A DNA stretch of 64,000 bases from Geosiphon pyriformis. Its lineage: Eukaryota; Glomeromycota; Glomeromycetes; Archaeosporales; Geosiphonaceae. Shown piece by piece: positions 9,628-57,756 of the stretch. How positions within the stretch are numbered: position 1 is the first letter of the stretch; each line of letters opens with the position of its first letter. Position numbers and translations under genes: made by a program. The stretch covers positions 802,018 to 866,017 of the forward strand of contig JAAOMT010000135.1 in NCBI GenBank assembly GCA_016748015.1, read 5' to 3'. The notes beneath the pieces were generated by a model. The model saw only the letters and a program-made list of their open reading frames with translations, ran no database searches and was not told the origin of the DNA.

Positions 9628-9628
<1 letters not shown>

Positions 9629-9661: not shown

Positions 9662-9663
<2 letters not shown>

Positions 9664-9954
9664 TATATTTATTACGTTATTCAATTCCACATACGCACTA
9701 TATTAAACAAACGAAACGCCATCTTCGAATTTATATTGGATTTATCTTCTGACTTACTTTTTTATCTTCTTCTTTTTTTTTAATTATTACTATTATTATT
9801 ATCGCCGGGATTCACACTTTGCCTGTCGATTGTATATAAAATTATTTGCATCTGATATATAAATATAGACTGGACCTTTCTCTTAACCAAGAATCAACAT
9901 TGATCTTGTCTAAAAACCAAAAATTTAATTAAATATTCAATCCAAAAATTAAAA

Positions 9955-29484: not shown

Positions 29485-32330
29485 TTTATATGTTCTCTAA
29501 AGGGTTGTGAAAAGAGCGAAAAAGTTCCCGATGGAACACAGAAAAAGCAAATTGTTCGAAATTGAATTGGGTATGTGGTTGGGTAATTAAAAAAAATGTA
29601 CCTTTGTTATAATATGATCGATTCTTTAGGCTAAGTCAAGCGACCATCAAAATATCTTTGATAAAAAACCAGTTGCTCGAAATTACCGGATTCTCGGTCA
29701 TAATCGGAAGTGATTTAGAACTTCAAAAGTTATATATGTTTATATTTTCGTTTTATCAATCTTTGCCACACAAAATAACTTATTAATATAATAGAAAACA
29801 AATGTTGAATTAATTTTTTTTTAAAATGCTTTATTGAGTGTACATGTTCTCTAATAAATGCAGCTCATGCCCTTTCTACATATCCAACTACACTATATAA
29901 TACATTGGCATATACTCTACTAGAAACTTGAGTCTAAAAATTCTTAACCTATCAAATTAGAAACATCTAATAATAAGCGCAACAGCTTTCCTTAAACGCA
30001 TAAAACCTAAGTGGTACCACATTTGTTCAACACATTTATACCTAACTTATTACCACATTTTCCTGAAGTTAAATGTGCTATTCTTTAAAAACAAACTTAA
30101 TCAAAGCTGTATAAATGCTTTTATAAACCTGAGTATTTATGTTTTCATACAAAGACATCAAATTTCTCAAATTCCAAAGAATCTTGTATTTGTTATAATA
30201 TGCTTTAAAATTTATCTGCAATTTCATTATAGGGTTTTTTTAACAATAAACAACATATTATATAAAGCTTTTACAACTTATATACAAATTTTAACAGTAT
30301 TTTTATTTGTAATATCAAATTTGAAAATGCTAAATCATAATCATTTTTTTTAATTAACAATATTTATTATATTTCTGTTTAAGAATTTGTTTAAAACAAG
30401 TAAATTTTTATTTTGTATAATGCTTTATTTTATACAAATTTCGAACATAAAATTTAATATTATAATTATTACAATATTTATACTTATAAACCAAATATTT
30501 TTTATATAACTATTAAAAACTATGTACTTATAATTATTAACTTATTTATTTTCGTATTTTTTATAATATTAAAGTGTTTTTTAACTTTAATTTAATATAT
30601 ATTTTTTTCTTAATTATATATTTTTAAAATTAAGTTTATTGATTTTTAATTAAAATATATATAATTATTTTTGAAAATAAAACTTTTTTTCTTTTTTTTT
30701 TTTATAACTACATTTAAAATAAAAAGTAAAAAGACTACAAATATTATAGTATTTTGTATAATTATTTTTTTTAAATAATATTGTAGTAAGTTAATTTTAA
30801 AACATTTTTTTGGTTTTAAGTAAAATTTTTTTTTTAAAGTTATATTAAAGCAATACACTAAAAATAGTTTTAATATAATTACTATTATCTTAAAATATTT
30901 TAAAATATTTAATTATAAATTAATACCCAAACTATTATTTTCTTTTTCTTTTTTTTTTAATTGCATAAATTTTAAAAAAACCAAAACAATAAAAAAACAA
31001 CTTTTTGATTCTTTTTTTAAATTAATTATTAATTTTTTTTGTCTTTTTTATTTTTTGTTAATTTTATAATATTTAATTTTGTTATAATTAAATAATAATT
31101 AATTGTTTGTTCTAAATAATAACAATAAAAATATATTAATTTATCTTAATTTGAATTGGTTTTTGGTTATATATTAATTTTTAATTAATTATTATTAATT
31201 ATAATAAGTTATATTTTAATATATAACTTTAATTATTTACATTATAATATTACTTAATTTAAAAAATTAAGCTAATATTATGAAAATTAAAACAAATTTT
31301 TTTTGTTTTTTGGTATTATTATTGTTATTAAAAAATTTTTGTTTTTTAATATTATTATTAATGCTATTTTGTTATTAATTCTATTATAAATAAAACTGAT
31401 AAATTTCTAATAAGCTAATTTTATTTTAAAAGTATTTTTTTATACTTTAAACTATATAAACTATTAAATTTATAATAAAATAACCAATTTTGTGCTAATT
31501 ACTTTATATAATTATTTTGTAAAAAAAATTAACCTAAATTTTTATTTATAAGTTTCTTAATATGTAATTACTTTATTATAAAAGTTAATTTTTTAATTTC
31601 TTTAAATATTATTATTAAAATTGAGTTTTTTAATTTTATTTGTTTTTTTATACTTAAAATTATTAAGCTTTTAATAATTTTTAAATTTTTTTTATTGTTG
31701 TTATTTGTAAAATATTTTAAAAATTATTTTTAATGTTTTTGGTAAAATTTTAGTATTAAATTAAAATTTGTTAATATTTAACAATATATTATTATTTATT
31801 TTATCTTTTTTAATATCATAATAATTTTGTTTATATTAAAATAAATATATAATATTGCTTTAATTAATTTAAATAGCTGGTTATATGTAAAAAATATGTA
31901 ATTTATGGTTAATTTAAATTATTTAATTTAATATATTGTACTAAATTGTGTTTAGATCTTAATTATTAAATTAAAAAAATTATTACAATTGTATTTATTT
32001 GTTAATCAATTTTAATTAATAAATAATAATAAAATTTATAAATAATTAAATAATTAAAGAAAATTATTACTTTATATAATATTTTTAAAGTTAAATAATT
32101 GATTTTTTAAATTATATAATTTTTAAAATCAGTTTATTAATTTTTTAAATAAATAATTAACAATATTTAAATTATATAATTATTATTTTTTGGTTTAAAA
32201 TTAATATATTAAAAAAAATTAATACTGTTTTAAGTATTAAAATTTAAATTATTTGATTTTTAATCATAAAATGTTTTTAAAAACCTTTTTTTTATTAATT
32301 TTTAAATATAATAAGAATAAAAAATAATAT
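29485..32330. other. Transition into an extremely AT-rich block, origin unknown
   Basis: Up to about 29770 the base composition is ordinary intergenic. From roughly 30350 to 32330 it becomes almost pure A/T, with no open frame that resembles a protein. By analogy with the parts that can be aligned (32330-33450 and 34140-37690) this is probably further hypermutated duplicate or transposon DNA, but I could not match it by eye. Confidence 0.5.
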
Positions 32331-33450
32331 TAAAAATATTTTACTTTATTTTTTATTTACTCAAATTTTATGTAAATTATTTTTATTTCTATTAATATTT
32401 TTATATTTTTAATAATAAAACTGATAAAATTATTTGTTAATACTTTAACTAAAAACCTAATACAAAAACTTGTTTAAATACCAAAAAAAATCAGTTTTTA
32501 TGTATAATTATTTACAAAAATATAAACAAAAAAAATATAAACTTATTTTTAAATCTAATATTATTAATTTATTTATTAGTTTTTTAATTTTAGTTATATT
32601 AAATTCTAATATATTTAATGTGTTTAAATTATAAAAAAATAAAGTTAATAATAAAACCAATAATATAAACAGTATTTCAAATCTTGAAAACTTAAAAAAC
32701 TTTATAATAAAAAAAATTCATTATATAATCTTAGATAAATTAAAAAGTAATAGAAATATAAATAAAACAATTTTATATTATATTTAAACAAAAATATATA
32801 ATCTAATAAAATTATTATATTTATTTTTAATTAATAAAATGTATAATAATAAAATATTTAGCTTTTTTTTACTAATTACAATTAATTTGAAATTTATAAT
32901 TATTTTATTTGTAAAAAAATCAAAAAATTTTAAATCAGTAAAATTTTTTGTATTAAATATTAATATATTAGTTATTGTAAAATAAATTTGAATAAAAAAA
33001 TTTTTTTAGTAAATAAATAGGGGTTAAAATATTTACTTTTTTAAAATTATTAAATTAAATTTTATTTTTAATTAAGTTTAAATTTAAAGATTTGATAATA
33101 GCTAAAAAAATTATAATAAATACAAATTTAAAAAAATTAATATTTAAAATTATTAAAAAAATTTTAGTTAATTTTATTAAATTAGTATTATTTATAATCT
33201 TTTTCAAGTTTGGTAAAATTATCTCTATTAAAATATAATTGATTGATTTATAATAAAAAACTATAGTATAATTTAGTAAAATAATTGTTAAATTAATAAT
33301 TGTTAATTAGTTAATTTTTATAAATAAAAATTTAATATATATAATTAAAACAAATATTAACAAATAAATATAAATATTAGATATTATTATATATTTTTTT
33401 GATAAATATTATAGCTTATAATCTTTTTAATATTTTAAAATTATATAATA
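32330..33450 (+). pseudogene. Hypermutated LINE fragment (ORF1 region)
   Basis: When C-to-T and G-to-A are allowed, this stretch aligns colinearly with the LINE ORF1 region at about 46361-47260. For example, the DNA at 32650-32870 follows 46610-46800, and 33000-33250 follows 47030-47260. The frame is destroyed by TAA/TAG codons. The right end may extend further, but the match fades. Confidence 0.75.
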
Positions 33451-34140
33451 AAAAACTTATATTATTAATTAAAATTTGGTTTTTTATATTTATATTAAAT
33501 ATACTATAATTTGGTTTATTATTAATAAAAACAGAACTTTTATTATTTATTTATTTATAATTTTTTAAAAAAATAAATTATACTAAATTGAATTAAAAAT
33601 ACAAGTGTATATTAGTTCTAATTAACAAAACTATATTTTATTATTTTCTGTTAACAATTTTTTAGATTTTGATTTAATTTTAATTCAAAAATTTATCTTT
33701 TTATAAAACAAGTAAACAAGTTGACAAAAAATTAAATACATTTATATTAGTAGTTTTTTAATCTTATTTTAGATATAAACTATTAATAATTTTTTCTATT
33801 ATAAAATTAAAAAAAAGTTTAGATGTATTTATTTATAATAAAACTGTTTTAATTTATGATTTTTTAAAAATTTAAAATATTGTTAAGTTAAAAAAATATG
33901 TGCAAAATTTATTTAAAACTGTCTTAAAACTTATAACCAAAATTAATTGCTTTAATTTAACTTAAAAATCAAATAATTTTTATTTTAAATAATAAAAAAT
34001 AACCAATATTTGAAGAATAAATAATTCTACAAAACAAAAAAAAATTATAAAATAACATAAAAAATCAAATAATTTAATTTTTATTATTACTAAAACAAAA
34101 TTTAATTATAAATAAGTTTGTTAATATATAAGTTTACATT
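33450..34140. other. AT-saturated DNA between decayed LINE and decayed FKS1 piece
   Basis: Almost only A and T, with no frame. It may be the continuation of the decayed LINE, of the decayed FKS1 copy, or both. I cannot align it reliably. Confidence 0.4.
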
Positions 34141-34643
34141 TTTAACATAAATTTTGGTCATTTAAATTTTAATATTATAATTATTATAAATAATTATTTA
34201 ATTAAATATGTGTGTAAAATTTTTGAGATTGTTAGTAAACTTTTGTTAATTAAATAATATTGTTAAGAAAAAAAAATTATTGGTATTTTAAGTTTTAAGT
34301 TAGAATAATTATAATATTGTACAAATCTATTATTTTGACTTAAAAATAAACAAAAATAATCTTGTTGTTGTAAATAATTGTTGTTGTTGCAAACAACATA
34401 AAAAAAATTTGGTAAAAAATTAGAATTTTTTTAATAATTAGGATAAATTAATAATAATATTATTAATTTATGTTGAAAAAATAAATATAATAATAATTAT
34501 TGTCAATATTGTTGTTGTTGTTACTGTTGCTGCTGCTGCTGCTGTTTAATTTGATAATGATTGTATTGTATGTTATTATTATTACTATTGTTATTAGAGT
34601 CTGAATTACCAAAATTGTTTTGTTAATTGTAATTTTGGATTAT
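34140..34643 (-). pseudogene. Hypermutated copy of the FKS1 5' coding end
   Basis: On the minus strand this reads as the first exon of FKS1 from its start codon (ATG changed to ATA at about 34643), with nearly every C and G transition-mutated. The glutamine-codon repeat at about 34510-34545 survives as CAG repeats. The text following it matches the coding DNA at 10070-10330 after C-to-T and G-to-A changes, and more weakly to about 10490. No open frame remains. Confidence 0.9.
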
Positions 34644-34984
34644 TTTTAATTTTTAAAATTTTTAAGCTGTTAACAATAAACAAATTAGTTGGTAAATACT
34701 AATTAAATTCCGAATTTTTTTAGGCTATTTTATTTTATTAAAACTTTTTATATTTATTTGTATGTTATTAAAATAGATAATTAAAGTAATAAGTTTAAAA
34801 ATTTTTTTTTAATTGATTGATTTTTTTTTCTTGTTTTTCTTTTAATTAAAATTTTTTTTCATATTATAATGAAATCAAAACATTAATTTTAAATTTTTTT
34901 GTTTTTTTAAAAATTTATTATCAATAAAATCTATAAAAAAATAAAAAAAAATAAATTCAAAATAAAAAAATATATATATATATT

Positions 34985-35712
34985 ACATCATTATTAATTA
35001 TTATAGAACTATTTCTTTTTTCTCTTAATGAAATATGTAATCAAACATTTCATAATAGTGTTATTTTACATTATAATAATATGCTATTTATAATACATAA
35101 TTATAAATACATGTATTATAAATATATAATATAATATAATTAAACTTGTATAATAAATATGATCAAACTTATGATCAAAATTATTATAAAATATATTAGT
35201 CTAAATATTTTCACTTACTATATTGTTTTATTTATATAAAAATAATTACAAATTTGTATTTAATCTAATATGTTTTTTATCTTCTAATCTAGTATATTTT
35301 TTATTCATATTTTTTATTTTCTAATCTATTATATCTTTAATATTGTATTTTTGATTTTATTTATTATTAAACTCTTTTAATATGCAAGCTTTTCTAACCA
35401 TACTATAATACAACAAGTTTTATATTTATAAAACTTTTACAAATTAACACCAAAAATTTTATAATATATTTAAATATAATTATATAATAAATACAAAAAA
35501 ATTTATTATATTAAAAGTTTAATTTATATATTATAAATTAAATTGTATTTTTATATTCTAATTAACTAATAAATCATGTACTATTTAAAATTATAAGATT
35601 TTTATATTTTTATATTCTAATTAACTAATAAAAATTCAAAATTATATGCTATATAAAATTATATAAAACATAAAATTTTGAATTTTTTCTTTTATAATAG
35701 CATAATATATGT
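34985..35712. mobile_element. AT-saturated insertion of about 730 bp inside the decayed duplicate
   Basis: Homology to the source arm stops at about 6870 (mate 35712) and resumes at the adjacent base range (mate 34985), so this segment was inserted into the copy or lost from the source. Its content is too decayed to name. Inserted mobile element is the simplest reading. Confidence 0.45.
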
Positions 35713-36489
35713 TTATTTTCTAACCAAAAAAAAATTAAATTTAATATCATGTAAAATTCAATTTATAATTACAATAACAAAAAATATTTTGTTTTTTATT
35801 GTAAAAAATAATTAAATGTTTTAATTAAAAATAATAATACATTAAATATTAGTATTTTAATTATATTTAAGTATTTATTTTCCGAGAAAAAAAAACTTTT
35901 ATATATTAACTATTGTTAATTTAAAGAAAAAACCAATCTAAATAGTACTGTAATTTAATAACAAAATAAAAAAATTAAATATAAATATAAACTTTGATAA
36001 AAATTTATATAAAATATTATTTGTAAAAATAAAAATCAAATAGATCAAAAATTTGCAAAGTATTTCTCTTTTGAAAATGAATTATAAATCTTATAAGTTT
36101 TAATAAATATTCAAATAATCCATTAAGATTTATGGATTTACAAAAGTTTTTTCTTATAAATTAATAGTAAACTTTTTGTTTAATATCATACAATAACAAC
36201 AAAACTTTGAATTAACATATTATTTTCATGAAAAATTTCACACTTTTTTTTATTTTACATAAAATATCTAAGTTTTTAGGTTTTTTATTATTTTTAATTT
36301 TTGAAACAGCATATTTTTTAAGTATAAAAATTACATAAAAGTTTTTTTATATTTTTATCTTTAGACTTTTATATTTATTTATTTATTTTATGTATTTTAG
36401 ACTTTTTTTTTGTCTTTTTTGTATTTTTTTTTACATGATCATTTTTTGCAAAAACAAAAAAGCTTATTTTAGTATTATAAATTAATATT

Positions 36490-38358
36490 TATTCATATTT
36501 TTTTTCAATTTTTCTGGTATTTTTTTTTCTATTAACTCACTTATTTAAATTTTTGGTTTTTTTTTTAAAAATTACAGAATTCTATTGATGTTTTTATTTT
36601 ATTTTATTAATAATAACTGTCTTTAATTTTTGTGTTTTAGCCAAAAAATTTTACAAAAAACATAAAATTCTAAAATAAAAGTTTGATTATTATTAAAAAT
36701 AAACAAAAGTTTTTTGGTATTTATCTTATAAAAAAAAACAATTTACATACTGACAATAATTTTTTATATGGTTATTATAAGTTGGCAATAATTTTAATTT
36801 TTATTATCATATTGTATATAATTTTTTACTTATTTATAACAAAATATAAAACCAAATATAATATCTTATTAACTAAAAAAAAGGAATTGCAATTAGCTTA
36901 TATGCATTTTATACAATGATTAATAGAGAATTGAGACTACTGGTTTTAATATACTGTAACAAAAAACCAAAAGATTATAAACAGGCAATTTTTACAACAT
37001 TAATAAAGTCTGTTTTTGCTTTATTTATAAAATTTTTGTATTTTAGATCTGAATTTTTATTACATTTAATTTTTTGATGACCAAACTAAAAATGCATTAA
37101 TAAAAAAATTAAGACTAAAAATGCATTAATAAAAAATTATAAGAATAAAAAAAATTATATACATAAAAAAAGTAATCACAAAATTTTTCTTTATCTGCTT
37201 AAAAATAGTTTTTACTATTACATGTCAAAGCATAATTGTTATATTTATACAAAAATAAAAAAACCAACAAATTTTGTACTGAAAACTTTAACTAATTGCA
37301 AAGAACAAACTTATCTACGTTTTTTTCAGAATTTGTGTTACTATTAAAATTCTGTAATAAAACTTTTGTCTTTTGATTTTCTTCTTGAATTAGATTTTTA
37401 ATGTTTGCAGTACTATTGGCTCAACATTGTATACCAAGATTCTTAATACTTTTATTTCCTAAAATTTCAATGGCCTCCAAAAATCCGGCCAATAAATCAT
37501 TTAAATAACTTTTTTTTTTAACTATATTGCTCATAAGACTACAAAGCCATTCATATTTTTGTTGGAATAAAAGCTCCTTTCTTTGAAAAAGATCAATAAC
37601 CTTTCAATACAAAGAACTGTATAAAAGAATTCAAAAAATTAAATATTTTACCAATAAATCAAAGGAAAGTTAAATAGGAAAGACCTTACTTAATGAAGGC
37701 TGCTGTGTCGTCCATTTGAACGGCTTTAATCTGCTCAAGGACCTTTTCATACGGCCGATTGAGCAAATCATCACTCCCTGACGCCTGATTCTCTTCCTGC
37801 TCGTCTAAGCTGCTTTTATCAGCTTCTGTTGCCTCAATCCGAGGCTTCTTTGCGCTCTTTTTTTCAATTTAAAGATGAAAGATTGATTGAGAGTTGAAAA
37901 AGAATACCTCCCAATCCAACTCCTTACCTGTAATTTTGCGCTTTGACGTTCCTTCCTCAATTTTATTTTTCGGCTGAAATTTCACAATTGAGTATTTCAG
38001 CGAGAAGGCGTGCAAATATTACTTTGTGAGCAAGGAACTACATCACGCGATGTCATTTTAGCAAGAGGAAAAAACACTAACCAATTTTTTTTCAAATGCC
38101 TTCAGTTTCAGGACCATTTAATCAAGTGCCTGATATCGCTTGACAAGGCATTATGAGAACCCTTCATCGAATTCGTTTGGCTATAAATCATATCCCATTT
38201 TGAAATACTCCCCCATCTGGAGATGGGTCGCTTCCAGTATTCTGTATTATGTTTGTTAACGAATGAAGAAAATACAAAAAATAGATAAATAATAATAAGT
38301 AATTACGAGGGCATTTGAGCCTCTTGACCATGTAAGTTGTTAGTTCCAAGCAAGACAT
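36490..38358 (-). pseudogene. Decayed second copy of the unknown nine-exon gene
   Basis: This is the mate of 3965-6070. Exons 1 to 4 (about 37690-38358) are nearly unchanged, with a few transitions such as AGAGTC to AGAATC. Exons 5 to 9 (36490-37690) are progressively destroyed by C-to-T and G-to-A changes, so no full protein can be made. A 5' fragment could still be transcribed from the intact TATA-like box. Confidence 0.85.
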
Positions 38359-38518
38359 TGAAAGCTGGTGATAGAAGGATGCGTATGTAAGACGAGGTAT
38401 TAGCGTTGCAATGTCAGGCAAAAAACAAAAAATGTAAATGTGTTTTAAAAAATTGCGTCTTGTGATTTATATGATAGCTTTTATATAGGGATTTGGAAGT
38501 ACGAAAACAAACGCGTGT

Positions 38519-38725
38519 ATGAAGAGATTTTTTCGTGTCATCCAATCACGCATGTGGCCACTACTTTACCTAAGTTATTACAAGGGTCCTATTTGTACCA
38601 ATCCCGATGGCTGTTTTGGCTATGTAAAACCATCTAAAAATAGCTTGACTGTCAAGTACACATACGGTCCAAGAAGTTCAAATGCTCTTTCAGGACTTTC
38701 GCAACTGAAGTTCCCTTTAAAATAA
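38519..38725 (+). CDS. Second copy of the 68-residue small ORF
   Basis: Identical in translation to the frame at 3598-3804, within the nearly unmutated end of the inverted mate. Its coding status is as doubtful as that of the first copy. Confidence 0.25.
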   Translation: MKRFFRVIQSRMWPLLYLSYYKGPICTNPDGCFGYVKPSKNSLTVKYTYGPRSSNALSGLSQLKFPLK

Positions 38726-39265
38726 TGTTATATTAAAGAACGGTTCTCTCAACAAGTGGCTGTCAAAATATACTGTCAAAATCACCAAAATGGGGTTGGC
38801 ACACTCATAATTTGTTGAAGAAATCCTAAGGCCAATTAGAGTATACAAATGCAAAAGTCGTGTACTGAACTATCGGAGAATTTATCATTTGATAAAGTCG
38901 TTACAGAAATAAAAAAAACTCAAACTCCCCAATAGTTATTGAACCGAAATTTCCTATATTTAATAAATCCATTTCTAAAATGAACATTTTTCTTATGAGA
39001 ATACCTGCTAAAGGCTGAGGAAGGACTTTTTTTTAATTGATGTTTAACTAAAGGGACTCTTGGCCAGCTCTTATCCTGTCCCAAGAGCATCAGCTCTCAT
39101 CCTGGCGATTCATCCATCATCATTGCTTGAAGTTCGGTTTTGTTGAGAATAACTTTTTATCGTTATTGTTTTCGTGATAGATCGAAGTTAAACGTTCAAG
39201 TAACGATTTCCAAGCCTACTGGGAAGACATAATACACGAACGAAAGAAGGTTAGTCAAGTCCTAT

Positions 39266-40179
39266 GGTACAAACCATTTATAGTCATCAAACAATTTATA
39301 TAATTTTAAATTGTATCTAGTCTTCCAATTTTAATAATATTAAAAAACTAAACCGTAAATATGATAGATTAAGTTCTTCTCTTTCACATTTACGGTTTAC
39401 TTTTTTGAATTATATTATATTTTATAAAGTTATTAAAGTTTAAAATTAGCCACTTTTATTATTAATCTTTAATTTTCGGATGCCGATCAATCAGATTTTA
39501 GCCAATCAGCAATCATTAAAGTCACGTTACCACGTGATAAATCATCATAGTATTATCATTTTCAGAAAGACTTTCAATTAATATTAATCTAAAGATATAG
39601 TATCTTTTGGTTTGTGTGTTTTTTGCTGGTGATATGGCACCATTAACCATAAATATTCTATTTACACCATTATCATATTTAGTTGTCATTATTGGGACAG
39701 AAATTCAGATATCAATATTGTTTATATTAAGTGTTAAAAGAATTGTAAAAGTATTATGAATAATTATTAGAGAATTAGGAATGTTATTTGCACTCTATTT
39801 GTAACCTTGTATTCCTCTTGATAAACATTGAGAACAACTGGCTTTGGTGCTAAAAGCAGCAGATTTAAGGCAAGAATTGGAATAACTGTGACATAATTGG
39901 CTGTCAGCCCAAAAATAATACTATAAGCAAAATATTTGGTATTAAGAGACATTGTAAAAGATTAATCACTTGTCTCAACTCTTATACCTTGAAACAAGAA
40001 TGTGACTCAAAATTTATGAAAAAAATTAATGCAATTAATTTTTTAATAAATAGACTTTGCAGTAAATTATAGATGGGTTACTTTTTTTTAAAGCATCATA
40101 TATACAACATATGTTTTTTAATGACTGATGTTTTAAACACTTCTTTTTCATAAAATTTTAGAAATAGATTGTGTTCTAT
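39266..40179. other. Unique AT-rich spacer
   Basis: It lies between the duplication end and a solo LTR. Two small hydrophobic frames face each other here (plus strand from 39634 with about 42 codons, minus strand 39767-39952), but neither has a recognisable motif. It also has CCAAT-like and ACGTGATAA-like motifs near 39490-39545. I do not call a gene. Confidence 0.4.
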
Positions 40180-40999
40180 TGTTATTCATAGAAGATAGGA
40201 ATCATAGTAGTATATATTAGCCAATCAAAAGTAGACATAGTAAAATAAAAAATTCTAGAATTCTTCTTAGAAAAATTACAGAATTCTAGGAATTACAGGA
40301 TTCTTATATGAGGAATTCCAGAATTCTTGACAGAAAAAATAAAAGAATTGAGGAATCTCAAATATATATATAACAGTAATATTAGAAACAGAAAAAACAG
40401 ATTTTTCAGTTTAGATTTCATTTAAGCAATCTTCTAATTTACAAATATCAATAAATAATTATTTGTTATATCAATTCATTCTTTACTATCAACATAAAAT
40501 GTTGATAGTAACTGATACTTAACCATACTAGAACAATAGCTCTTGATTATAGCTATTGACAGGATATTAACATTCATTGTCTTGGCTTATTTCTTTATTT
40601 TTTTTTATTTTTTATTTTTTTTTGTTATTTCTTGTTGTTGACTAATTGATTAAAAATTAAAGCACTGAGTTATTAACATCAAGAATTGTTTGGTAAAAGA
40701 CTCTTGCAAGTGAGTAAAACACATAAAAAATATGAATTGCTTATCAAAGAATTGCTGACCACCAAACCAAGAAAAAAATTAATGGAATTGCAATTCCAGA
40801 AGACTACTGAAAACAATTATTAAATCTCTGTTCATTATACAAAGAACTCAACCTAAATCTTCAGACAACCTAAACTTTCAGACAACTTAAATCTTTAAAT
40901 AACCAAAACCTTCAGATACTAACATTATTATATCAGCTATTGAGCACCAAATTATGAGTTTATTATTTGTTTTAAGACTTTAAATAATCATCTATAATA
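40180..40999 (+). repeat. Solo LTR, old copy of the window's Gypsy LTR family
   Basis: This 820-bp element starts TGTTATTCATAG and ends ATAATA. It aligns along its whole length to 60107-61005 and to the reverse complement of 56901-57738. Shared landmarks are the AATTCTGGAATTCC-type palindrome cluster, GTTGATAGTAA, TAGCTATTGACA and GAGCACCAA. The flanks CTAT (40176-40179) and CTGT (41000-41003) look like a 4-bp target duplication with one transition. Confidence 0.8.
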
Positions 41000-41003
41000 C
41001 TGT

Positions 41004-42547
41004 TTGATAAGAGAAATAATTAAAAGCTTAAAAATGTAAAGCATAAAAGTAGTATTTATGATTAAAAATTAACTTAATCAGGTCTAAAAAAAAAGAACCC
41101 ATAAATTGTTTTTGCAATCTATAAAAGATAAAAAACATTAAGCAACTTTGAAAATTTTAACCAGTATCATTTTTATTATAATGTGAATACTTACTTTGAA
41201 TTCACAAATAACTTTTCAATAACTATAATATTGTATTTTAAAGAATTACTTGAATTTAAAAGATATACAAAATCCTCTGTAATAAAGGTTTCTAATTAAA
41301 TTTAATATTTGAATAATTAATTATACCAAAGAGAAATATAATAACTAAAATACCTATTATGTATTTGACCAAATTATAATCTAGTTTTAGAATTGGTTTT
41401 CTAGGCTGTAAAAGAAATTTCAATTGTTGAATATTTTAACAACTTATTAGAATATGATATATAATAGCTTATTATAGTAATCAAAAAACTTATATCAGTT
41501 GGTATTAATTTAGGGAAATCAGATTGGAATTGAAAGATTTTTGGCTTTATCTTGATTAAAAGAACTGAAGTTGTCTTAAAGTCTATAATCTTGAATAGTT
41601 CTTTTTTGTTAGTATTGTATATTTTCTAACAAGTTCATTTTAATGCAAAAAATGTATAAAATATAATAGTTCAAGTAGATAAAACCCAGATTTTTTTGTA
41701 AAGGTCTAATAAACTTTTCACTTATAAGAATTTAGCATCTTTGAAAATATGTAAATTATTATTAAAATACATGACATTTTCGAAATCAATTGCAAGTCCT
41801 AATTGAATTCATAAATAAATAATATTCTTTTCAAATTTTTTACTAATGTAATATAGAAAACATATATCAAATATTAAGTAACTAATAGAAAAGAAGTGTA
41901 TAATACCAATCTTAATAATATTTAAGAATCTTGGCTTTTTGATTATATCATAATATTCTGGATATTCTTCTTTGAATGGTAAATCTATAAATAATTTGGC
42001 ATATTATCGATCACTAAATATGAAAATGAGAGATTATAATTAGGCTATAATACTAAAATTGAAATTTATCTCAAATATTCTTATCTACTATCTTTTTGAT
42101 CAATAATCATTTGCAATAAATCTTTTATTAGCTTTAAGAGATCGGCTTCAATTTGAAAATCAGGTTTTTTTGAATTGGTTGTTTAATTGTCAATGTTAGA
42201 TTTTTTTGCCCAAATTTCTTGTTATAAGTCAAAAAATTTTTTGTAGTAACTATTTTTATTGATGTTACCTGAATTTTCAGCTCAAATAATCTCCCCAATC
42301 CCAATAAAAAATTTTTTTTGATGAATGCTAAAAGAGCTTTTTTTGATTGCTTCTTATTCAGAACTACAAAACAAAAATTAAAGTTTAAATTAGAACCAAA
42401 GAGATTTAAAGAATAGATATATATCTGAATTAAAAACATTATTTTTATTATAATACAATTTTATTGTACAACATTACACAGTTTAAATTCTTTAATTCTG
42501 TCCAAGCACCAATTACACACTAGATTAATATTAAATTACATAAAAAA
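41004..42547. other. AT-rich region without recognised genes
   Basis: Contains a 101-codon minus-strand open frame (42134-42439) rich in Lys, Phe, Ile and Leu that I cannot assign. It may be decayed transposon sequence. Nothing else is seen. Confidence 0.4.
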
Positions 42548-44650
42548 ATGCCACTTTATTCTAAAGGAAAAAAAAAGCTAAAGATCAAGTTAGAAATACA
42601 AAAGAATCATATAAAAAAACACATCATACCACTTTAATAAATGATCATGATATTGAAGTAAATAAATTTAACAGACTGGATGTTAGTAATAGAGAGTAAA
42701 ACAACAATAATAATAGTAAATGAGATGATACAGAAGATATAGAAGCTGTAATTAAAATAAAAAAACTCAGTTTAGTATAGAAAAATAACAATTATCTAAA
42801 AAAAAAAGTAAGGCCCTTACATGACAAAAAAAACACCAAAGTTAACCTATTATGATAAATATGAACAAATAATTTGTTCACCATAGCAGCAGCCAGAACT
42901 AAAAAAATTATCATTTTCTTTAATATTAGTGATGCTCAAATTACAGATTTACAATAGTCTGAATCTAATTAATCTTTAAGCAATTCAGAAAGTGAGGTTA
43001 ATCCATATGCTAATTAAATAAAAAAAGAGCAAAAGTTAAAAGAACATTTAGAAAAACAATATGTTCAGTTAACTGTTTTCGAATATAATCAAAAAAGAAC
43101 TATTTTTGAATATCTTACCTTGTTAAATAATAATAATGGACATGAAAAAATTAATGCCAGTTTGAAAATTGTCCAAAAAGTTTTTATTGATGGTAGTATA
43201 TAGAAAGCATAAAAAATTTGATATTTTGCAAAGTATTGGTTGCTTAATAATAAGTTTCTAACATTAAAACATAGAAAACACCAAAAAACAATTAGAATAA
43301 TTAATGATAAAGACATTGCAGAAAGATGTTATATTTGGATTAGAAACCAAAACTTTAATGTCATTCCAGCCATATTTAAAAAATTCATTGAGCATGAATT
43401 GTTTTCTAATATTAAAATAATAATAAAAAAAACTATTAGTCTTATGACTGTAGTAAGATGGCTCAAAATTCTTGGTTATTTATTCTAACAACATCATCAA
43501 GGCTTATATTATAATGAACATAAAAAAAATAATGTCTTACAATCTTGAAAAAAATTTTTAGAAAAAATATTTGAGCATGAAAAATATATAAAAGTGAATT
43601 TATGGATTAAATACATCCTAACTTACTTAATAAAGAGAAAAAAAGAGTTTTTGTAGTTCATAATGAATGTATTTTTTATTCAAATAAAAACAAACATGGC
43701 ATATGAACTGAACATGAAAATTTGCCACTAAGAAAAAAAGGAAATGGAAGATCAATTATGGTTAGTAAATTTTTAACTGAAATTGATGGATGTTTATATT
43801 TACAACAAAATAATATAAAAAACTATTTTAATATACCAGAAAAGGCACAATGCTATTTGCAACCTGATATAAATCAAGATAATTATTGGACAGCAAACCA
43901 TTTTTTTAAACAAATTAAATATAAAGCAATTCCAATTTTTGAGAAATTATATTCAGATTGTACAGCTGTATTTGCTTTTAATAATAGCTCTAAGCATACA
44001 GTATTTAGTAAAGATGTTTTAATTGCAAACAAGATAAATTTAAGTCCAGGTAAAAAGCAATCATTAATGTAAGATACTTCTTTTGAATTAAATAATTAAT
44101 TACAATTGATGATCTTTCTGAAACATATTCAGATAAAAAACTTTGAGAATTGCTTAAAAGAATTAAACAAGTATTAATAAAATGAAAAAAATGGCCATCA
44201 AAAGAATTAGTATTAGAATACCAAAAATGCAAAAAAAAAATCAAAGATTCTTCAAAAATTTCTTGTTGTGCACATTGAGTAATATCTTTGAAATTCGATT
44301 TTCTTGCTCAAAAAAATACAATTGAAGAATTAATCAAAAATATGAGACATGAGTGCATTTTTTTTCCAAAATTTTATTGTGAATTAAATTTTATTAAAAG
44401 ATATTAGAAAGCTGCTAAAAGATATGCACATAACAAATGTGATTATTCATGAAAAAAATTATAAAGAACAGTATCTAAAAGTCTTGAATCAGTATCTTTA
44501 ATAACTATTAAACAATTTTCAAGAAAATATTGGTGTTATATAAATCTTTATAGAAAAGATTTTAGTGGAAAATTAGTAAATCTTATAGAAAAATTCCAGA
44601 TAATATTCTTAAAGAATTAGACAAATTAAATAATATTCAAACTTTGTAAT
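42548..44650 (+). pseudogene. Dead IS630/Tc1-mariner-like DDE transposase
   Basis: Fragments in order resemble the DDE transposases abundant in fungal repeats. The N-terminus is basic (MPLYSKGKKK), followed by a helix-turn-helix stretch (43240-43488, ISLMTVVRWLKILGY), then the catalytic core in pieces: TEIDGCLYLQQNN (about 43777), DCTAVFAFNNSSKHTVF (43950-44010) and CELNFIKRYxKAAKRY (about 44380). The expected catalytic Asp in VFAFDNSS is Asn here and the Glu after LNFI is Lys. Both are one G-to-A change. Many stops interrupt the frame. DNA-binding and strand-transfer functions are inferred from the family. Confidence 0.75.
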
Positions 44651-44829
44651 ACTGTATTTGGTTTTATATTATATAAAATTTACTAAAATTTTATTTTTTA
44701 TTATAAATAATATATTAAAAACACATATATTATAACCAATAAAATTTAATTATATAAATAAAAACATGTAAAGATTATCATTTAAAATTTCGGACTGATC
44801 TATATTTTTGATGATTATAAATGGTTTGC

Positions 44830-46215
44830 ATCATATATATACTGCTCTGCCTTAAATGTTATTTCTAAATTAGCTATTTTTTATAAAAAGTCTAAAATAG
44901 ATGTGATTATAAGAAAAAAAAAATTTTGGACAATATTTTAAGTATTTAGCATTAACAATTAGTTATAACAAAATGTTGAGTATAGTTAAGGATTTGTCAA
45001 ATGACAAAGCCACTAATTTATCTAATATTATTAATGAACTTTAAAAACATTACAACAAATTTGTGTTAATATTATTATTAAATTTGTTGAATTGTTGTGT
45101 TTTATGTAAGTCAGTTTCTTAGTTTTAAAAGAAGGCTTGGATGTTAATAATTTTTAAACTATATGAATAAAAAAAGGGTTTTGATCAACACTAAATTTAT
45201 TGTTTTAATTAAAATATATCAGAAAATTTTATTTAAAATTTTTTTAGACAGAAATTTTTTGGCTTGCAGCAAATTTGAAGTGTTTTATGATAACAATTTT
45301 TATTTTTAAGAGATATATCAATTCAGTTTCTGATTTTTGTAGTGGATTTAGTAATAAAAATATGTTTAAAAAAAATTATAAGATTTAACTGGTCTTATAA
45401 AATATATATAAAGCATAAAATTCTGTTAATTAGTTATATTTAAAAAACAGTTTGGTTAAAATTAAGATTTATAAAAGATTTTTTGGATTTTTTGGAAATA
45501 TTTACCAATTAAATTATATTAGATTTTAAATTAACAAATAAATATAAAATATAGAATAGTTTAGAATTGTTTTAATAATTTTTTTTTGTATAAAGTAAAA
45601 AAACATAAAAATTTATATAAATATTATATTAATATTAAGTTTATAGCCAAAACAGATAAGATTAAAAACTAAATTGGTTTAATTTTTTATTTAATAATTA
45701 AAGCTTTTAATAACATAATTTGGATAAAAAATAATTAAACTGCTATTTAGTATATTTTAAATATTATAAATATGTTTTTTATAATTAATAATATTTTAAT
45801 AAACAATAAAAAAACAGTAATTATTTTTATTAATCAAAAAATTAAGTATGTGTTTTTATTAATTAATAATCTGTCAATTTTTATTGTAAAAAAAATATAT
45901 AAATACTTAGGTATTTTTTTGTTAATAAATAATTTGTTTAAATTTAGTTTATTAAAAACTTATTTTAATATCAAGTTTTTTGTAAATATAATTCTAAAAA
46001 AAATTATATTAAAAAAATAATTTTATTATTTAATTTTTGTAATATTATAATTAATTATTAATTACAAAATTTAGTTTAATTTTGTTTTTAAAAGTATATA
46101 TAAATAAAATACTTTGATCAAAAAAATATAAAAATAAAAATAAATTTATTAAGAAAATTTTCAAGTAAAATTATTTATTATTTTTTTTTGTATAATTTAA
46201 AATTTTTTAAACAAA
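44830..46215 (+). pseudogene. Hypermutated LINE fragment (reverse transcriptase region)
   Basis: Aligns colinearly to 49600-51055 of the neighbouring LINE after C-to-T and G-to-A changes. For instance, 44990-45120 follows 49770-49890. The 82-codon open frame at 45772-46020 translates to the decayed version of the RT region NNNKTVVIPINCQ... YLGIFLSSDGLSKFS. It ends abruptly where the younger LINE starts. Confidence 0.85.
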
Positions 46216-46360
46216 TACAGTGAACTCTCTAAAAAAATCTTTCTCTTGTCAATTCTCTAACTACAACAAGAGCAAAAGATAATTTTGAAGAAATCGTTTT
46301 TCTTTTTCCCTTTCCCCTCAATCCCTATTAATTATTTCTTCTAACTTACCTTTATTTGTT

Positions 46361-48045
46361 GTGATGGAACTGGTGGGCTCATCTGCTGGTGGTTCTGGTT
46401 CGGATTCAGCTGGTTTAGGGACCCGCCAGAGTGCTAAAAACAAGCGTGTTGATACAGTTTATGCCCATAGTGCATCCTACAAGAAGCCTAAAAAGCCTGC
46501 AGCTAGTGTTTCAGTCAAGTCATCCACTGGTCCTTTATATTTAAAAGATTTGGGTGGTAATGATAGTAAGCCAGCGGCATCCTGGGGAAGCAGAGTGGAT
46601 AGTGTTTCTGGTAATGTAAGTGGTCATTTGGATGTCAAGAATTTGGAGAACTTAGTTGCTGAGAAGACAAGCTATGTTGATTCAGGTGAGAATGACGAAA
46701 TGAACAAGACTATGCTGCATAGGACTCGCATTCGGACATATGTGTTGAAACAATCTCTTAAGGCACCTCTATTTGCTACTATGAACAACAATGACAACAA
46801 TTCCGTGTTGCCACCTCCTAAAATCAATAGGTCTAATCAGCTGCCCTCTTCTAAATCATGTGTTTTTAAGAGTTGGAGTTTTGGGCCAGTGAAATTGTTT
46901 GCTCTGGATGTGAATTTGTTAGCTATTCCTAGCAGGACTAATAGTGATAAGTTTATTTCAATCAAAAATTTTTTTTACAAAATTGATGGTTTTGGAGGAG
47001 CTTCAACTCCTTCAAAATTTCCTGGTGTTATCCGTTCAACTTTCACAAGTGAGTCTAGTTTGATCAAGGCCAGAGAAATGGCAGTTCATGAGAAAATTGT
47101 TGTCAATGGTAATCTCAAAAAAGCAAACATTCATTCGAATCGGGAAGTGATCATTAAGGAGATCCCAGTTGATTTTCCAAAGTTGGCTGTGGAATCAGTT
47201 TTTTCTAAATTTGGCAGGATTGTTTTCATCAGAATGCAGTTGATTGGTCTTTAACAAAAAGTCCTGATTGAATTTGAGTCATCAAAAGTTGCCAGTTTGG
47301 TTGCATCTAAATGGTCGGTTCTTGTGGGAAAGAATTTGGTGTGTGTGGTATTGGTGGTTAGTAATAAACAAACATGGTATCAAGAGATCAGCATCAGGCA
47401 TTGCTTTATACTCTTCTAGTTGGCACCACTGCTCATGATTTTTCTGGTCTGTTGGATTTGTATAGTGGGAAGACCTGTGTTATTGGCCATAATCCAGTTA
47501 CGTATGTTTGAGATAGGTGTGCTGTTATTTGTTTTGCTGATGAAGCTTCCAAGTTGACTGTTTTTGGTTCGGTTCTGGGCTGGTCTTTTTCTGGCTTGCT
47601 GCACTGTATGCAATCTGTGTGGTCATACTAGTGGAGTGTGTTTAGTAAGTGAGAATTCTGGTAGCCATGAGAAAAAAGTGGTGACCAATCTGGATCGTGT
47701 TTGTTTGGCCAGTATTTATAAGAAGAAGCAGGCACCTGTTACTCGTCCAGTCTCTTTTGGTGAGAGAACTTGGGCATTGGTGGTTGGTGCTCCTTCAGTG
47801 TGTAGTTCTCATAGTGATGGTTTAATTCTTGGTTCCAACAAAGTTGGTAAACCTCTCCCTTCTGTTGTGAATGATTTGAAAAAGCATTTGGTAAATATTG
47901 AAAGCAGTCTCGTCAGTCTCGTGGGACAAATTGGTAAGTTGGCTAAGAGGTTGGATTCACTCGTGCCAGCAGTTTCCCAGCCTAGCCCTGGATGTCAGCT
48001 GCTAGTAACACCCCATTGCAGAATCAAGGAGAGGATATAGTGATG
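46361..48045 (+). pseudogene. LINE ORF1 (nucleic-acid-binding protein), broken
   Basis: The frame begins at MMELVGSSAGG, has a Ser/Lys-rich basic start and an RRM-like segment near 47140-47240 (KEIPVDFPKLAVESVFSKFG, then RIVFIRMQL). It is interrupted by TAA at 47252-47254 and by frame changes. A zinc-knuckle-like CxxCxHxxxxC (CNLCGHTSGVC) lies near 47596-47640. ORF1 proteins of LINEs coat their RNA (family knowledge). Confidence 0.65.
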
Positions 48046-48227
48046 GGAGTGGGTTTGGGTGATGCCACTGGTAACAAGACTGCTGCCGTTGTGGGTTCAA
48101 CTGCCTCACCTGAGGTTGTGAAATTGGAGACCATGTTGGAGGGTCTTGCTGCTTCAGTTATGAGCTTATTAACATGCTTGGATGGTTTGGCTTTGACAGG
48201 TGATGTTCCTCTTCTACCTCTTTCTTA

Positions 48228-51200
48228 ATGAGTGGTCTAATATGGAAAATTGCTATGTGTAATGTTCATGGATTGAACAATCCTGTAAAGCAAGATGATG
48301 TAATTTATTGGCACAAGGATATGAACAATTTGGTTTCTATTTTTACAGAGTCAAAGCTTAAAGATAAAGCTTGCCCATGGCTGATTGACAAATTTGATGG
48401 TGTTCATGTTTTTACTTCTGGTCTGGATTCTGGTTCTTTGGGTGCTGGGGTGTTAATCATAGTGAATTCTTCTTTGGCAAAACATGTCTGCAAAATCTTT
48501 GAGGTGTCTGGTTGGCTCCTATTCATCAAGTTGCTTTTCAAAAATAAACTTTCAGTGTCTATTTTGGGGCTCTATACTGGTGCTTTATCAGTGGTTCAGT
48601 TTTCTTAGGCTGGTAAAATCAACTCTCTTATTACCAAAGCCATTAATGAGTCTTCTTTTGTTATTCTTGGTGGTGATTTTAATGAGGATAATTCTCACAA
48701 ATGTGCCAGCTTTAAGAAATGTTTTGATTTGGGTTTGATTAACTTTCTGGGGGGGAGCTCTTTTGTGAAGTCACCTACTTGGTGCAATTTTTGTGATATC
48801 TCTAAAACAATTGATTATGTGTTTGTTTCTTCTAATTTGGTTGGTGTGGTGGTAGATTGTGGTGTGGATGGCATTGAAGAATATTTTAATACTAATCACA
48901 AGGCTGTTTATGTTTCTGTGAAACTGAGTGGCCTGCTCAATGTCCAGCTGAATTCACTGCGCAAACAAGCTAATAGAGATCATTGGAAGTATGATATCAA
49001 AAATACCAGTGAGATTAAGTGATCAGAATTCAGGAATGCTACAGCTGCTAATGCTATTATGTTCTCAGATAAGTTTGTTGTGGCTAAGCAGTTTTCTGAT
49101 CTGAATGCAATATGAGACACTGTTCGTAAGGTTATGGTTCTTTCGGCTGGTAGAACGTTCAAGAAAAAATGGTTTAGGAGTTTCAATTGTGTTTTTAATA
49201 AGATATCTTTCCAGTTTCATAAACTGGAGCTACTTGTGTCTAAACTGGTAAAGACTTCTCGGTTGGTTTCTAGTGGAGATTTTGCCTTGTTGTTAAATAC
49301 TTAGAACAGGTTTGATTCTGTGGGCGCTTTGCCAGTGAGATTTCTGTTTCTTTCTGGTGCTGGTTTTGATGCAATTTGTTCTGGACTGGCTAAGGCAAGG
49401 AAGTCTTACCGCTCTTCTAAATTGTTGGAATCTAAGCGTGCTGAAGAATTTAGTGTGAAGCAGGCTATTGAGAGGAGAATGGAGAGTTTTGAGGTAGATA
49501 AAGGTCACACTATTAGAAGTGTTTTGGAGTATTCTTTTCATAAAGTGGTGTTGGATCATTTGGTGGATGGTGGAGAATTAGTCCTGGAGCCTGAGTTGGT
49601 TAAATCTAAGGTGGATAGAATCATGGAGGGTTGGACTAGGAAATGTGCAGTGGCTTCTGATATCTCTGGCGATTGGACAAGGCAATTTCTGCCTTTGGAT
49701 CATGTCTTCGATAGTGTCTTCTCTGATATAATGTATTCAATCAGTTTTGATGAGATGTTTGGTGTTATTTCAAATTTGTCCGATGGGAAAGCAGTTGGTC
49801 TTTCTGGTATTCCTAATGAACTTTGAAAACACTGTAACAAGTCAGTCTTAGATATGCTTTTGGTGCTCTTAAATTTTTGTTTGGGTTGTGAATCAGTGCC
49901 TGGACTTTGGAGGGAAGTCTGGGTTTCAATGATTCTTAAACCCTACAAGTGGGAAGGGGTTTTTACAAATACCCACTCTATTGCTTTGATTGAAACAACT
50001 CACAAGGTTCTTTCCAAGATTCTTTTAGATCAGATCTCTCTGGCTTGTAGTACTTTTGATGTTTTTCGCAGGGACAATTTTTCTGTCCTAAAAGGTACGT
50101 CTACTCAATCACCTATCTTTGCTATTGGTTTGGTGATCAAAAATGCTTTGGAAAAGAACCGAAAGTTGTGGCTGGTTTAAAGAATATGTGCAAAGCTTAT
50201 GATTCTGTTGGTTGGAAGCATCTCAAGAGAAGTTTGATTAGGATCAAAATGTGTGACAAATTTATCAGATTTTTTGGTAGCATTCATAATGGTCGCACTA
50301 ACAGAGTGATAACAGATTTTGGTTTGACTAATGGATATCATGTTCAGGATAAATTGAATCAGGGGGAGGTTTTTTTGCCACTTCTCTGGTGCATATTTTA
50401 TGACTTGTTTTTGTGTGAGGTTAAAAGACAGGAGAGCATTTGTGGTTACAAATTGATTTCTCATTTCATTTCTAAGACTGGCTGGGTGGAATCTCAAGCT
50501 GGGCTGTCATCATTTCTGGTCACTGGTGCTTTTGTTGATGATACTATCTGGGTCAGTAGCAGTCAAGCTGCTACACAACACATCCTCAATGTTGCTAGTG
50601 AGTTCTTTCATTTAAATGACATTTCGATAAACAATAACAAGACTGTGGTCATTCCTATCAACTGTCAGGTTATTGCTCCTTACCTAACTATCAGTGATAT
50701 GCCAATTTTCATCGCTAAAAGAGGTGAACCTCATTGTTATCTGGGTATTTTTTTATCTTCTGATGGTCTTTCAAAGTTTAGCTTGGTTAAGGTGCATTCA
50801 GATATTCAGTTTTTTGTCAATCTCATTTTGAGAAAAGTTATTTCAGATAAACAGTTTGCTTATTTAGTGTCTTCAGTTCTCTTTTCTATTGTCAGCTACA
50901 GAACTCAGTTCAGTTTTATTTTTCTCAGTGTGTGTAATAAATAAGACGCTTTAATATGTAAGGGCCTAAAATCCAAATCTGGGCTGCCTTTGGACTTTCC
51001 TAATGATGCACTTCATCATCTTTTTTTGTACAATTTAAAAACTTTTAAGCAGATTTAGGCTGAAAGCAAGTCAGCTTCTATTATTGTTTTTGCAAATTCA
51101 ATTGGTGTTTTGAGTCACTTGTTTTCTCATAGGTCTCACGATCTTCAGGTTCTCAGCTGGCGTCCTCATCACCCTTTGTTGTTTTCTGTTTGTGTTAGAG

Positions 51201-52910
51201 TCAGCCCTTCAAACAACTTTTTGGCAGGTGTGGTTCATATTTTTTCTAGATGTAATTTGTCTTTGGGTGGTTCTCTGGCCAGTGTTTTTTGTCTTTGGTG
51301 TAGTACTCCTGTCTTTAGTACTTGGTAAGATAATTTTTTTCAAATGTGTCTCTTCCTTCAGATGTTATGGTATTGCTTTTGTAAAACAGCTTTGTGACCA
51401 GAATGACATTGTTTTTGATTGGAAGACTTTCAAGTATTGGAAGAGACTGGACCCCCGTGGCCCGGTCCCTTCTTGGTTTGATCTATCTGTACATTTTCTT
51501 GGTGATATAGCTTCTCCTTCTGGTCATTCCCCTTATAAGGGTGTTGGTGGTTTTTCTGACATCTGTTAGTCTCTTGGTTTTGGTGTTATTTGTAATGATC
51601 TGTTGAGTGTAGGTGCTGCCCACCTTTCTGTGTATACAGATGGGTTTCTGAATAACTTGGGCACTGTTAACATGTTGGCTGGTACTGCAGTTTTCTTTGA
51701 GGACATTGATTTGGGTCAGGGTGTGGAGGTTTTTGGTTTGGTTTCTTTTACTTTGGCAGAGTTGCAGGCCATTGCTTTGGCACTTGAGTGTGTTCCTTCT
51801 TTTTATTCAGTTGACTTGTTCTCAGACAGCCAGACAGCTATTGATGCTTGCAGGTCGGAGTCTTTATCAGTTGGCCCTAATTTCAGGAATTGTTGTTGGA
51901 TTGAGCATTGTCACATCGCCAATGTCATTCATCGCAAAAATTTGAATGTTAATTGAATTAAGGTTAAGGGCCATTCGGGTGTCTCAGACAACAAGCGTGC
52001 TGATGTGCTAGCTAAGAATGCTGCCCTTTTTGCCTGGCACCTGTTCCACTTGATCAGTGAGAGGTTTTTGAAGGCTGGTGTTGATATGGTTTCTGGTAAT
52101 TCAAGGCATTTTGTTTGTGACATATTCAAGTCAATCCATTGCATGCATTAGGAGGTTGGTTCTGGGTCCCAGGTTGTTCCAGGTTGTTTGCATGCTAATA
52201 TTGACTGGTTGAGGTCCTCTCTGGTGTGGCACTTGGATTCCTACATGGCGACTGGTTTTACTAGTATTTGAATGACTGGCTTTCATACATATTTCATGAA
52301 AGCCCTTTATCATCGTCTTCCTGTTGCTGTGCAAAAGCATCTATATAATAGGTATCCCAGTGTGGTTTGTTTGTTCTGTGGTGAGGTTGAAATCTCAGAC
52401 CATGTTTTTTCTTGCTCTTCTGATGCTGATGGTCGCGCCAATTTGTTAGACACTTATGCAGCTGTCTGGGAGGTGCGTTTTGGTCTGTTTCGTTTTTCTT
52501 TGTGCATATTACAGTTGTTGTCGACTTGCATTTCAAATATGACTGTCAGTATGGCTCTGTGTAAGGGTTTTGTTTTCAGCAATTGGTATTGCGAGTCTGT
52601 TTCTGTTTACAAGGATCTTAAGGTGGCAGTAGTCAATATTGTGAATTTTGTACAGGAGTTTTGTCTTGCATTTTGTGATAATATCTGGCTGGTCCATGTG
52701 AAACACTGGGCCATTATGGAGAAGAATAAGTTGATTTCATGTAATAGTTCTATTCCTGTCACTGTTTCTGGTTTTTCTGCACAGCTTTTGGCTGGAGTGA
52801 TTAGGTTGTTGAGTGTTGCTGATGCACTCGGCATTAGTTTTGGATATCATAAGCATTTTTTGTTTTATGCAGATGTTGGTGACATGGCTTCTGTTTATAT
52901 AAGTGCGTAG
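48228..52910 (+). pseudogene. LINE ORF2 (endonuclease, reverse transcriptase, RNase H), broken by stops
   Basis: The endonuclease domain starts near 48228 (MCNVHGLNNP; later LGGDFNED and TIDYVFVSSNL). The reverse transcriptase spans about 49900-50940 with CKAYDSVGWKHL and the catalytic AFVDDT at about 50528-50545. RNase H is at about 51600-52020 (VYTDGFLNN, TLAELQAIALAL, FSDSQTAIDA, KGHSGVSDNKRADVLAKNA). A CCHC-like zinc motif (CLFCGEVEISDHVFSC) lies near 52360-52415. Internal stops occur near 48607, 49020, 49113, 49303, 49824, 50178 and others. The RT centre itself still has the DD pair. Confidence 0.85.
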
Positions 52911-53225
52911 TGTTGTTCTGACTAGTCTGAGTGTCTGGTTATGTGTAGCAAAGGCATGATTCATGCCTAGTTTAGATCATTTGTATGATGTATAACACTA
53001 GGTGGTGTTTGGACTCCACTTGTTAAACTTTAATAATAATAAAAAAAAACTTTCTTTATAATCACACCTTTTAGTCAGCACATTTGTGGTAACTATAGAG
53101 AAATGAGACTATAAAAAATAATTAATATCTTATCACATGATCTATATATCACATACATAATATAATAACTAATTATATATATTTTATTTAAAAAAACTAT
53201 CTATTTGCAACTGTTTTTTCTCTTC

Positions 53226-57738: not shown

Positions 57739-57756
57739 TTATTCTCTCCTTTTAAT
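57739..57756 (-). promoter_or_regulatory. Polypurine tract next to the 3' LTR
   Basis: On the minus strand the bases directly before the LTR read AAAAGGAGAGAATAA. A purine tract at this place primes plus-strand DNA synthesis in LTR elements (family knowledge). Confidence 0.7.

Follow-up and report, generated by a model that had tools for sequence, protein, structure and literature searches.

In Neurospora crassa, repeat-induced point mutation (RIP) depends on RID and DIM-2, introduces C:G>T:A changes on both strands, leaves repeats AT-rich, and inactivates gene copies that lie within them. A second pathway, which depends on Dim2 and Dim5, has been described (PMC12543289). In Microbotryum and other Pucciniomycotina, TpCpG hypermutation favors a 5′ T and CpG, and transposons persist (PMC5381629). 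RIP has also been suggested, from dinucleotide indices, in Entomophthorales such as Zoophthora radicans (PMC11105155), and high CG methylation is reported at most transposable-element (TE) loci of Rhizophagus irregularis (PMC8647823). Here, we analyze an inverted duplicate of a segment that holds the start of FKS1 and the neighbor upstream of it in Geosiphon pyriformis (Glomeromycotina, Archaeosporales), in which C:G>T:A changes are dense in the copy and nearly absent from its source. The window, by which we mean the whole 64,000-nucleotide stretch analyzed, spans positions 802018-866017 of contig C324 in an assembly of 124.7 Mb and 406 contigs; a first-pass annotation, made from the sequence alone, had spoken of a glomeromycete-like example, and a glomeromycete host is strongly supported.

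Glomeromycotina-type fungi have long been viewed as ancient asexuals, and RIP is cited as undetected in Gigaspora margarita in the same paper (PMC8647823). A survey published in 2025, which covered 1,239 fungi, found RIP-like signatures in Ascomycota only (PMC12543289). Our literature search, which covered part of the matching papers, returned no description of RIP in Geosiphon or another glomeromycete. The published G. pyriformis genome comprises 129 Mb in 795 scaffolds, with 29.25% G+C and 64% repeats (PMC9453076); we measured 29.8% G+C over 16 sampled stretches of the genome, and the assembly contains a single site that resembles the Glomeromycota primer AML2, with one mismatch.

Results

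The reverse complement of 34258-39265 in the window copies 2225-10331 in three aligned blocks (39265-35721 to 2225-6877, 34990-34649 to 6847-7204, and 34654-34258 to 9944-10331), in agreement with the inverted copy of this region and of the start of FKS1 described in the first-pass annotation; source positions 7205-9943 are not represented in the copy. Left of 37640, 441 of 849 C:G pairs (52%) over 2594 aligned sites are now T:A, well short of the "almost every C or G" first reported. Both strands are hit equally (C>T 203/395, G>A 238/454; Fisher p = 0.78), with only 12 A:T>G:C changes and 47 transversions. Counted away from gaps, 389 of 715 C:G pairs and 8 of 1327 A:T pairs are changed in this block. 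Right of 37640, as far as 39265, only 8 of 599 C:G pairs are changed (Fisher p = 2.6e-117 compared to the left part), and in a short remainder of the copy beyond a terminal-inverted-repeat (TIR) transposon, source 2175-2226 aligns to 44886-44835 with seven C:G>T:A and zero other changes. Our claims about spectrum rest on plain alignments; alignments with transitions collapsed, used for heavily decayed transposon segments, favor transitions by construction. A collapsed match extending the remainder to 44958 (28/59 C:G hit, 13 transversions over 126 sites) failed plain alignment and was dropped past 44886.

A third copy of the region, the C330 paralog (L001, ~86% identical), covers 999 sites of the block and polarizes the changes: 155 C:G>T:A changes fall in the copy arm and 2 in the source arm, with a further 7 C:G>T:A sites ambiguous and 13 sites at which the source alone has C or G readable either way. 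The earlier claim of a single hit arm and a clean source is thus upheld. Two control pairs have ordinary spectra, namely the source and the C330 paralog (92 transitions and 71 transversions over 2225 sites) and two C318 methyltransferase genes (43 and 16 over 877 sites). Neutral mutation biased toward AT in DNA that has no function, or an AT-rich locus of unrelated origin, would suit the very AT-rich composition of the block, but we rejected both as extremely unlikely because homology is continuous, transitions are nearly one-way, the two paralog controls have normal spectra, and the edge of the block is abrupt. APOBEC-like editing of single-stranded cDNA was also rejected because the strands are hit equally and DNA of non-retroelements is hit; no search for deaminase families was made. 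Classical RIP, in which the arms would pair in a sexual stage and both be hit, with selection or chance retaining a clean source, fits the spectrum and strand symmetry, but the division of 2 compared to 155 derived changes and the unhit state of the C330 paralog and the C318 pair argue against it. Together with evidence on context, enzymes, and the edge of the block given below, these results make classical RIP improbable.

The mutated part of the copy lies in a low-GC block that exceeds the duplicated part in extent (30.2-37.64 kb; Table 1), and decayed pieces of one element flank the copy on both outer sides in the same orientation. We take this element, which has a lightly hit copy at 46220-53048, to be a long interspersed nuclear element (LINE), i.e., of the type without long terminal repeats (LTRs); a reverse transcriptase domain in its open reading frame (ORF) 50060-50944 scores 30.2 bits, barely above the Pfam cut-off of 29.6. 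The decayed 5′ part of the LINE at 32266-34255 has 378/479 and 173/232 C:G pairs hit in its two matches, with 69 reverse changes and 183 transversions over 1786 sites, all in collapsed alignment. Because pieces in the same orientation lie on both outer sides, the likeliest history is that the copy inserted into a LINE and that ~1.2 kb of LINE sequence was lost. In positions 1-30000, no LINE match stood out clearly from the reverse control (top score 49, control 40; ≤40 in the source arm). Reverse controls of this stricter transition-collapsed search scored ≤49, and ≤89 in an all-against-all run; a very permissive version was discarded, as it matched everywhere, with a reverse control nearly equal except at the true source match.

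Homology alone does not explain the one-sided hits, because neither the source nor the C330 paralog nor the two C318 genes have been hit. Position explains them, as only the copy within LINE sequence is hit. Selection sparing FKS1, which the first-pass annotation had offered as a reason for the clean source, is unnecessary because the copy sits between decayed LINE pieces and the source side has no clear LINE match. In the FKS1 copy (34258-34654), the start codon has become ATA and stops occupy 5 of 119 compared codons.

Hit fractions in the block depended strongly on the base 5′ of C (T 0.68, C 0.60, G 0.40, A 0.39; chi-square p = 8e-12) and weakly on the adjacent 3′ base (p = 0.03), with CpA, at about 0.47-0.48, the lowest of four; positions −2 and +2 also mattered (p = 1e-5 and 3e-6, respectively). 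Among trinucleotides in the arm, TCG was highest (32/42), CCC and TCA were hit at 23/31 and 66/97, and C was hit in all contexts; CpG accounted for 64 of the 441 hits and other sites for 377. We pooled 15 segments from the duplication, the LINE, the TIR element, and an LTR-type element, several sharing one LINE reference and one (the remainder to 44958) being weakly aligned. A 5′ pyrimidine was favored in 15/15 segments (pooled odds ratio 1.94), with no such preference in the two paralog controls, and pooled odds ratios were 1.91 for a 3′ G and 0.91 for a 3′ A. Saturated copies say little about context; among LINE copies with few hits, CpG was hit most (0.385, compared to 0.09-0.16 for the others), TCA, TCC, and CCC were hit at ~0.2, and GCT at 0.04. 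The first-pass annotation had looked to alignment and dinucleotide tabulation for a transition excess with CpA or CpG preference, and tabulation returned a strong C:G>T:A excess and the raised 3′ G but no preference for CpA, which is a further point against classical RIP.

Observed/expected CpG was 1.0 in genic DNA and 0.22 in both the LINE and the block. The composite dinucleotide RIP index took values of 0.08 for the block, −0.60 for genic DNA, and −0.71 for the LINE copy with few hits. The block value, slightly above zero, is as classical RIP would have it; the value for the lightly hit LINE indicates that the index would miss fresh hits.

We compared 35 LINE copies, out of 40 scored from 3346 first-look candidates. 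Over 1 kb, the 595 pairs differed by means of 123 transitions and 10.7 transversions, and three pairs with zero transversions differed by 108, 110, and 114 transitions over ~1 kb; at gene-paralog ratios, zero transversions in 108 changes has a probability of ~1e-15 or less. Individual copies carried 53-83 hits at 420-436 C:G pairs and 2-34 transversions, and the two counts were uncorrelated (rho = 0.007, p = 0.97). The zero-transversion pairs and the lack of correlation imply that hits on LINEs would have come early and fast. Private changes comprised 48 C>T/G>A on 96 C:G columns, 69 reverse changes on 488 A:T columns, and 52 transversions, with few C:G columns usable because most were already shared-polymorphic and excluded. 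Slow decay, in which silent transposon domains are densely methylated at cytosines and deaminate spontaneously over a long time with no dedicated mutator, would agree with CpG being most hit in LINE copies, with CpG depletion in the LINE and block and not in genic DNA, with the presence of C5-methyltransferase genes, and with the high CG methylation reported for most TE loci of R. irregularis (PMC8647823). The 108-114 transitions that already separate zero-transversion pairs, the failure of hits to rise with transversions, and the 377 of 441 arm hits outside CpG count against slow decay, however, and we consider it unlikely.

The signature is also present in other repeats and blocks. In the 16 sampled stretches, 55 of 575 scorable 250-bp bins were below 15% G+C and lay in sharp-edged blocks (65 of 640 bins were excluded for N). 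Repeats of the AT-rich block in the window were found again elsewhere, likewise AT-rich, and one of them, with transitions collapsed, is the LINE that has 39% G+C elsewhere. The short dispersed repeat at 31316-31594, presumably similar to miniature inverted-repeat transposable elements (MITE-like), is AT-rich in all 13 copies read (this one and 12 more), and weaker matches at L012 1231-1531 and L018 7287-7570 have 33% G+C. Repeat copies are hit on both sides, for instance in the pair L012/L018 (156 compared to 123), as in the two-sided damage of classical RIP. Compared to its L008 copy, the TIR transposon shows 94 C:G>T:A changes, 13 reverse changes, and 7 transversions over 1107 sites. A repeat nested in the TIR transposon (~40190-41010) was found again at 56895-57740 and 60107-61010, and the L008 copy (544-1674) is without the nested part.

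A genome search for cytosine methyltransferases, run exon by exon, gave 10 matches to PF00145 at 7 loci. Motif VI of RID and Masc1 is QT or ET in place of NV (PMC6572847). Neither QT nor ET occurred in any of the six readable loci, all of which have ENV; the seventh (L003) was unreadable, and a search by exons could miss a divergent RID. This result likewise speaks against classical RIP. Two BAH-domain matches lie upstream at C96, one weak match, below the cut-off, lies at C355, and none is listed beside C318. The C318 methyltransferase genes form an inverted pair ~32 kb apart and 93% identical over the 877 sites (L002 2157-3068, L003 848-1725). The Piwi domain gave 33 matches, which their positions group into about ten loci; in-frame stop codons interrupt some of the matches.

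At the edge of the block, hits stop at 37640 although homology continues, which classical RIP would not predict. Away from gaps, the clean island that follows has 0 transversions in 952 sites at 38295-39265 and 5 in 630 at 37641-38294, compared to 29 among 2042 sites of the mutated block; the TIR transposon bounds the island, and mutated copy sequence resumes beyond. The island probably arose when the source converted this part of the copy, a gene conversion that the TIR transposon would have halted, and otherwise by assembly chimerism, which we considered because a contig break in the source falls in the same stretch. In a chimera, source reads would have been built into the arm, so that the island and its edge would be artefacts and the mutated part real, an outcome compatible with the other readings. 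An N gap and the 814-bp overlap around it (2381-3194 = 3215-4028) sit inside the stretch shared exactly between both arms, and the island stops at the TIR transposon, as a chimera would have it, but 13 substitutions separate 37641-38294 from the source, some of them source-derived as judged by the third copy, and we think a chimera rather unlikely. The identical 814-bp sequences on each side of 20 N are evidently an unmerged contig overlap, i.e., an assembly artefact, and a tandem duplication at 2381-4028 was rejected on this ground.

FKS1 domains were found by Pfam search in ORFs 9904-12936 and 12978-16169, and the same type of search assigned no family to the two ORFs neighboring FKS1 in the source arm. 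The AT-rich insert in the copy had no match scoring ≥58 among the sequences compared.

Table 1. Features of the inverted copy, its source, and its surroundings (window coordinates).
Feature	Position	Strand	Remarks
Clean source arm	2225-10331	+	Gene-like ORFs, family not assigned, upstream of FKS1, then FKS1 5′ end
N gap	3195-3214		20 N, identical 814-bp sequence on each side
AT-rich block	30200-37640		Mostly 6-20% GC in 200-bp bins; edges sharp
Short dispersed repeat	31316-31594	+	~280 bp, 10% GC here
Decayed LINE 3′ end	31800-32075	+	31819-32075 matches 52877-53133, transitions collapsed; score 108, reverse control ≤49
Decayed LINE 5′ part	32266-34255	+	Matches 46220-47543 and 47917-48531
Mutated copy of FKS1 5′ end (9944-10331)	34258-34654	-	Plain alignment
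Mutated copy of 6847-7204	34649-34990	-	Plain alignment
AT-rich insert, extra to source	34991-35720		Unmatched
Mutated copy of 4711-6877	35721-37640	-	Plain alignment
Clean island of copy	37641-39265	-	Ends at TIR transposon
TIR transposon	39266-44830		5.6 kb, 22% GC, inserted in TATATA tract of copy
Remainder of copy	44831-44886	-	Beyond TIR transposon
Decayed LINE, later part	44923-46220	+	Matches 49704-50358 and 50396-51058
Lightly hit LINE copy	46220-53048	+	39% GC; reference for LINE comparisons

Discussion

The data strongly support a C:G>T:A process in this genome that is RIP-like or linked to methylation. The first-pass annotation had proposed RIP or methylation-linked decay, and the C:G>T:A process is the part of that proposal that survives; CpA, the RID motif, and the low-copy duplicates argue against classical RIP, and the hits outside CpG argue against decay of methylated CpG alone. 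From the spectrum, its one-sidedness, the LINE on both sides, the signature in other repeats and blocks, the context of hits, and the ENV motif of the readable enzymes, all observed directly, we favor RIP-like hypermutation of transposon domains, with no RID found, in which the gene copy would have been hit owing to its landing site; we assign this reading a probability of about 0.62. New transposon copies would acquire C:G>T:A changes fast and each on its own, on both strands, at CpG most and then at C after a pyrimidine, and repeated strikes would turn transposon clusters into blocks of ~10% GC. The segment with the start of FKS1 and the neighbor upstream of it would have been copied into LINE sequence and hit there, and the source, in gene-rich DNA, would have escaped. 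Later, gene conversion probably reset a 1.6-kb stretch of the copy to the source sequence, as far as the TIR transposon. We infer from sequence comparison that the transposon chromatin domain, rather than pairing of the arms, would direct the hits, and that deamination may be linked to an enzyme of DNMT1/DIM-2 type.

Several observations weigh against hypermutation of transposon domains as set out here. The C330 paralog is clean though it adjoins a 300-bp stretch of 7% G+C (L001 7200-7500, with N from 8161), and nearness to AT-rich DNA alone therefore causes no hits. Within the copy, the hit fraction declines slightly from left to right, away from the LINE (0.57 to 0.40; rho = −0.11, p = 0.0015), and then stops abruptly, a pattern that a simple spreading rule would not predict. 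The flanking LINE pieces, between which 1.2 kb is missing, may be two separate insertions. With respect to context, CpA exceeds CpT in the lightly hit LINE copies (0.156 compared to 0.092), and a 3′ A is favored in 6 of the 15 segments. Finally, choosing the best-scoring LINE copies favors lightly hit ones, and the evenness of hit counts may be inflated.

Compared to RIP in N. crassa, with which it shares the both-strand C:G>T:A spectrum, AT-rich repeats, and inactivated gene copies within them, the process in G. pyriformis shows no CpA preference and no RID-type motif in the readable enzymes, did not hit low-copy duplicates in any of three cases lying outside transposon DNA, and has left LINEs numerous. 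It resembles the hypermutation described for Microbotryum and other Pucciniomycotina (PMC5381629) in the favored 5′ T and CpG and in the persistence of transposons, but hits every trinucleotide context and occurs in a glomeromycete host. With the case of Z. radicans (PMC11105155) it shares a suggestion of RIP in fungi that lie outside Dikarya and have no known sex, and in our block, too, the composite index is above zero; the claim there is based on dinucleotide indices, whereas ours is based on polarized alignments. The likeness to R. irregularis TE CG methylation (PMC8647823) lies in CpG being most hit in LINEs and depleted in repeats but not in genic DNA, and the difference in the predominance of arm hits outside CpG and in LINE hits without transversions.

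Tentatively, and with more doubt than confidence, we raise the possibility of a dedicated RID-independent system of Glomeromycotina that would act in bursts on whole transposon domains, prefer C after a pyrimidine and CpG rather than CpA, spare low-copy duplicates in gene-rich DNA, and perhaps run without sex. Index-based screens may detect only the oldest products of hypermutation, given an index of 0.08 for the block but −0.71 for a LINE copy with few hits. If true, a RIP-like process in a glomeromycete would point either to hidden sex or to repeat hypermutation without sex, perhaps without RID. A genome defence known mainly from very different fungi would then operate, with unusual target letters, in a relative of the mycorrhizal fungi.

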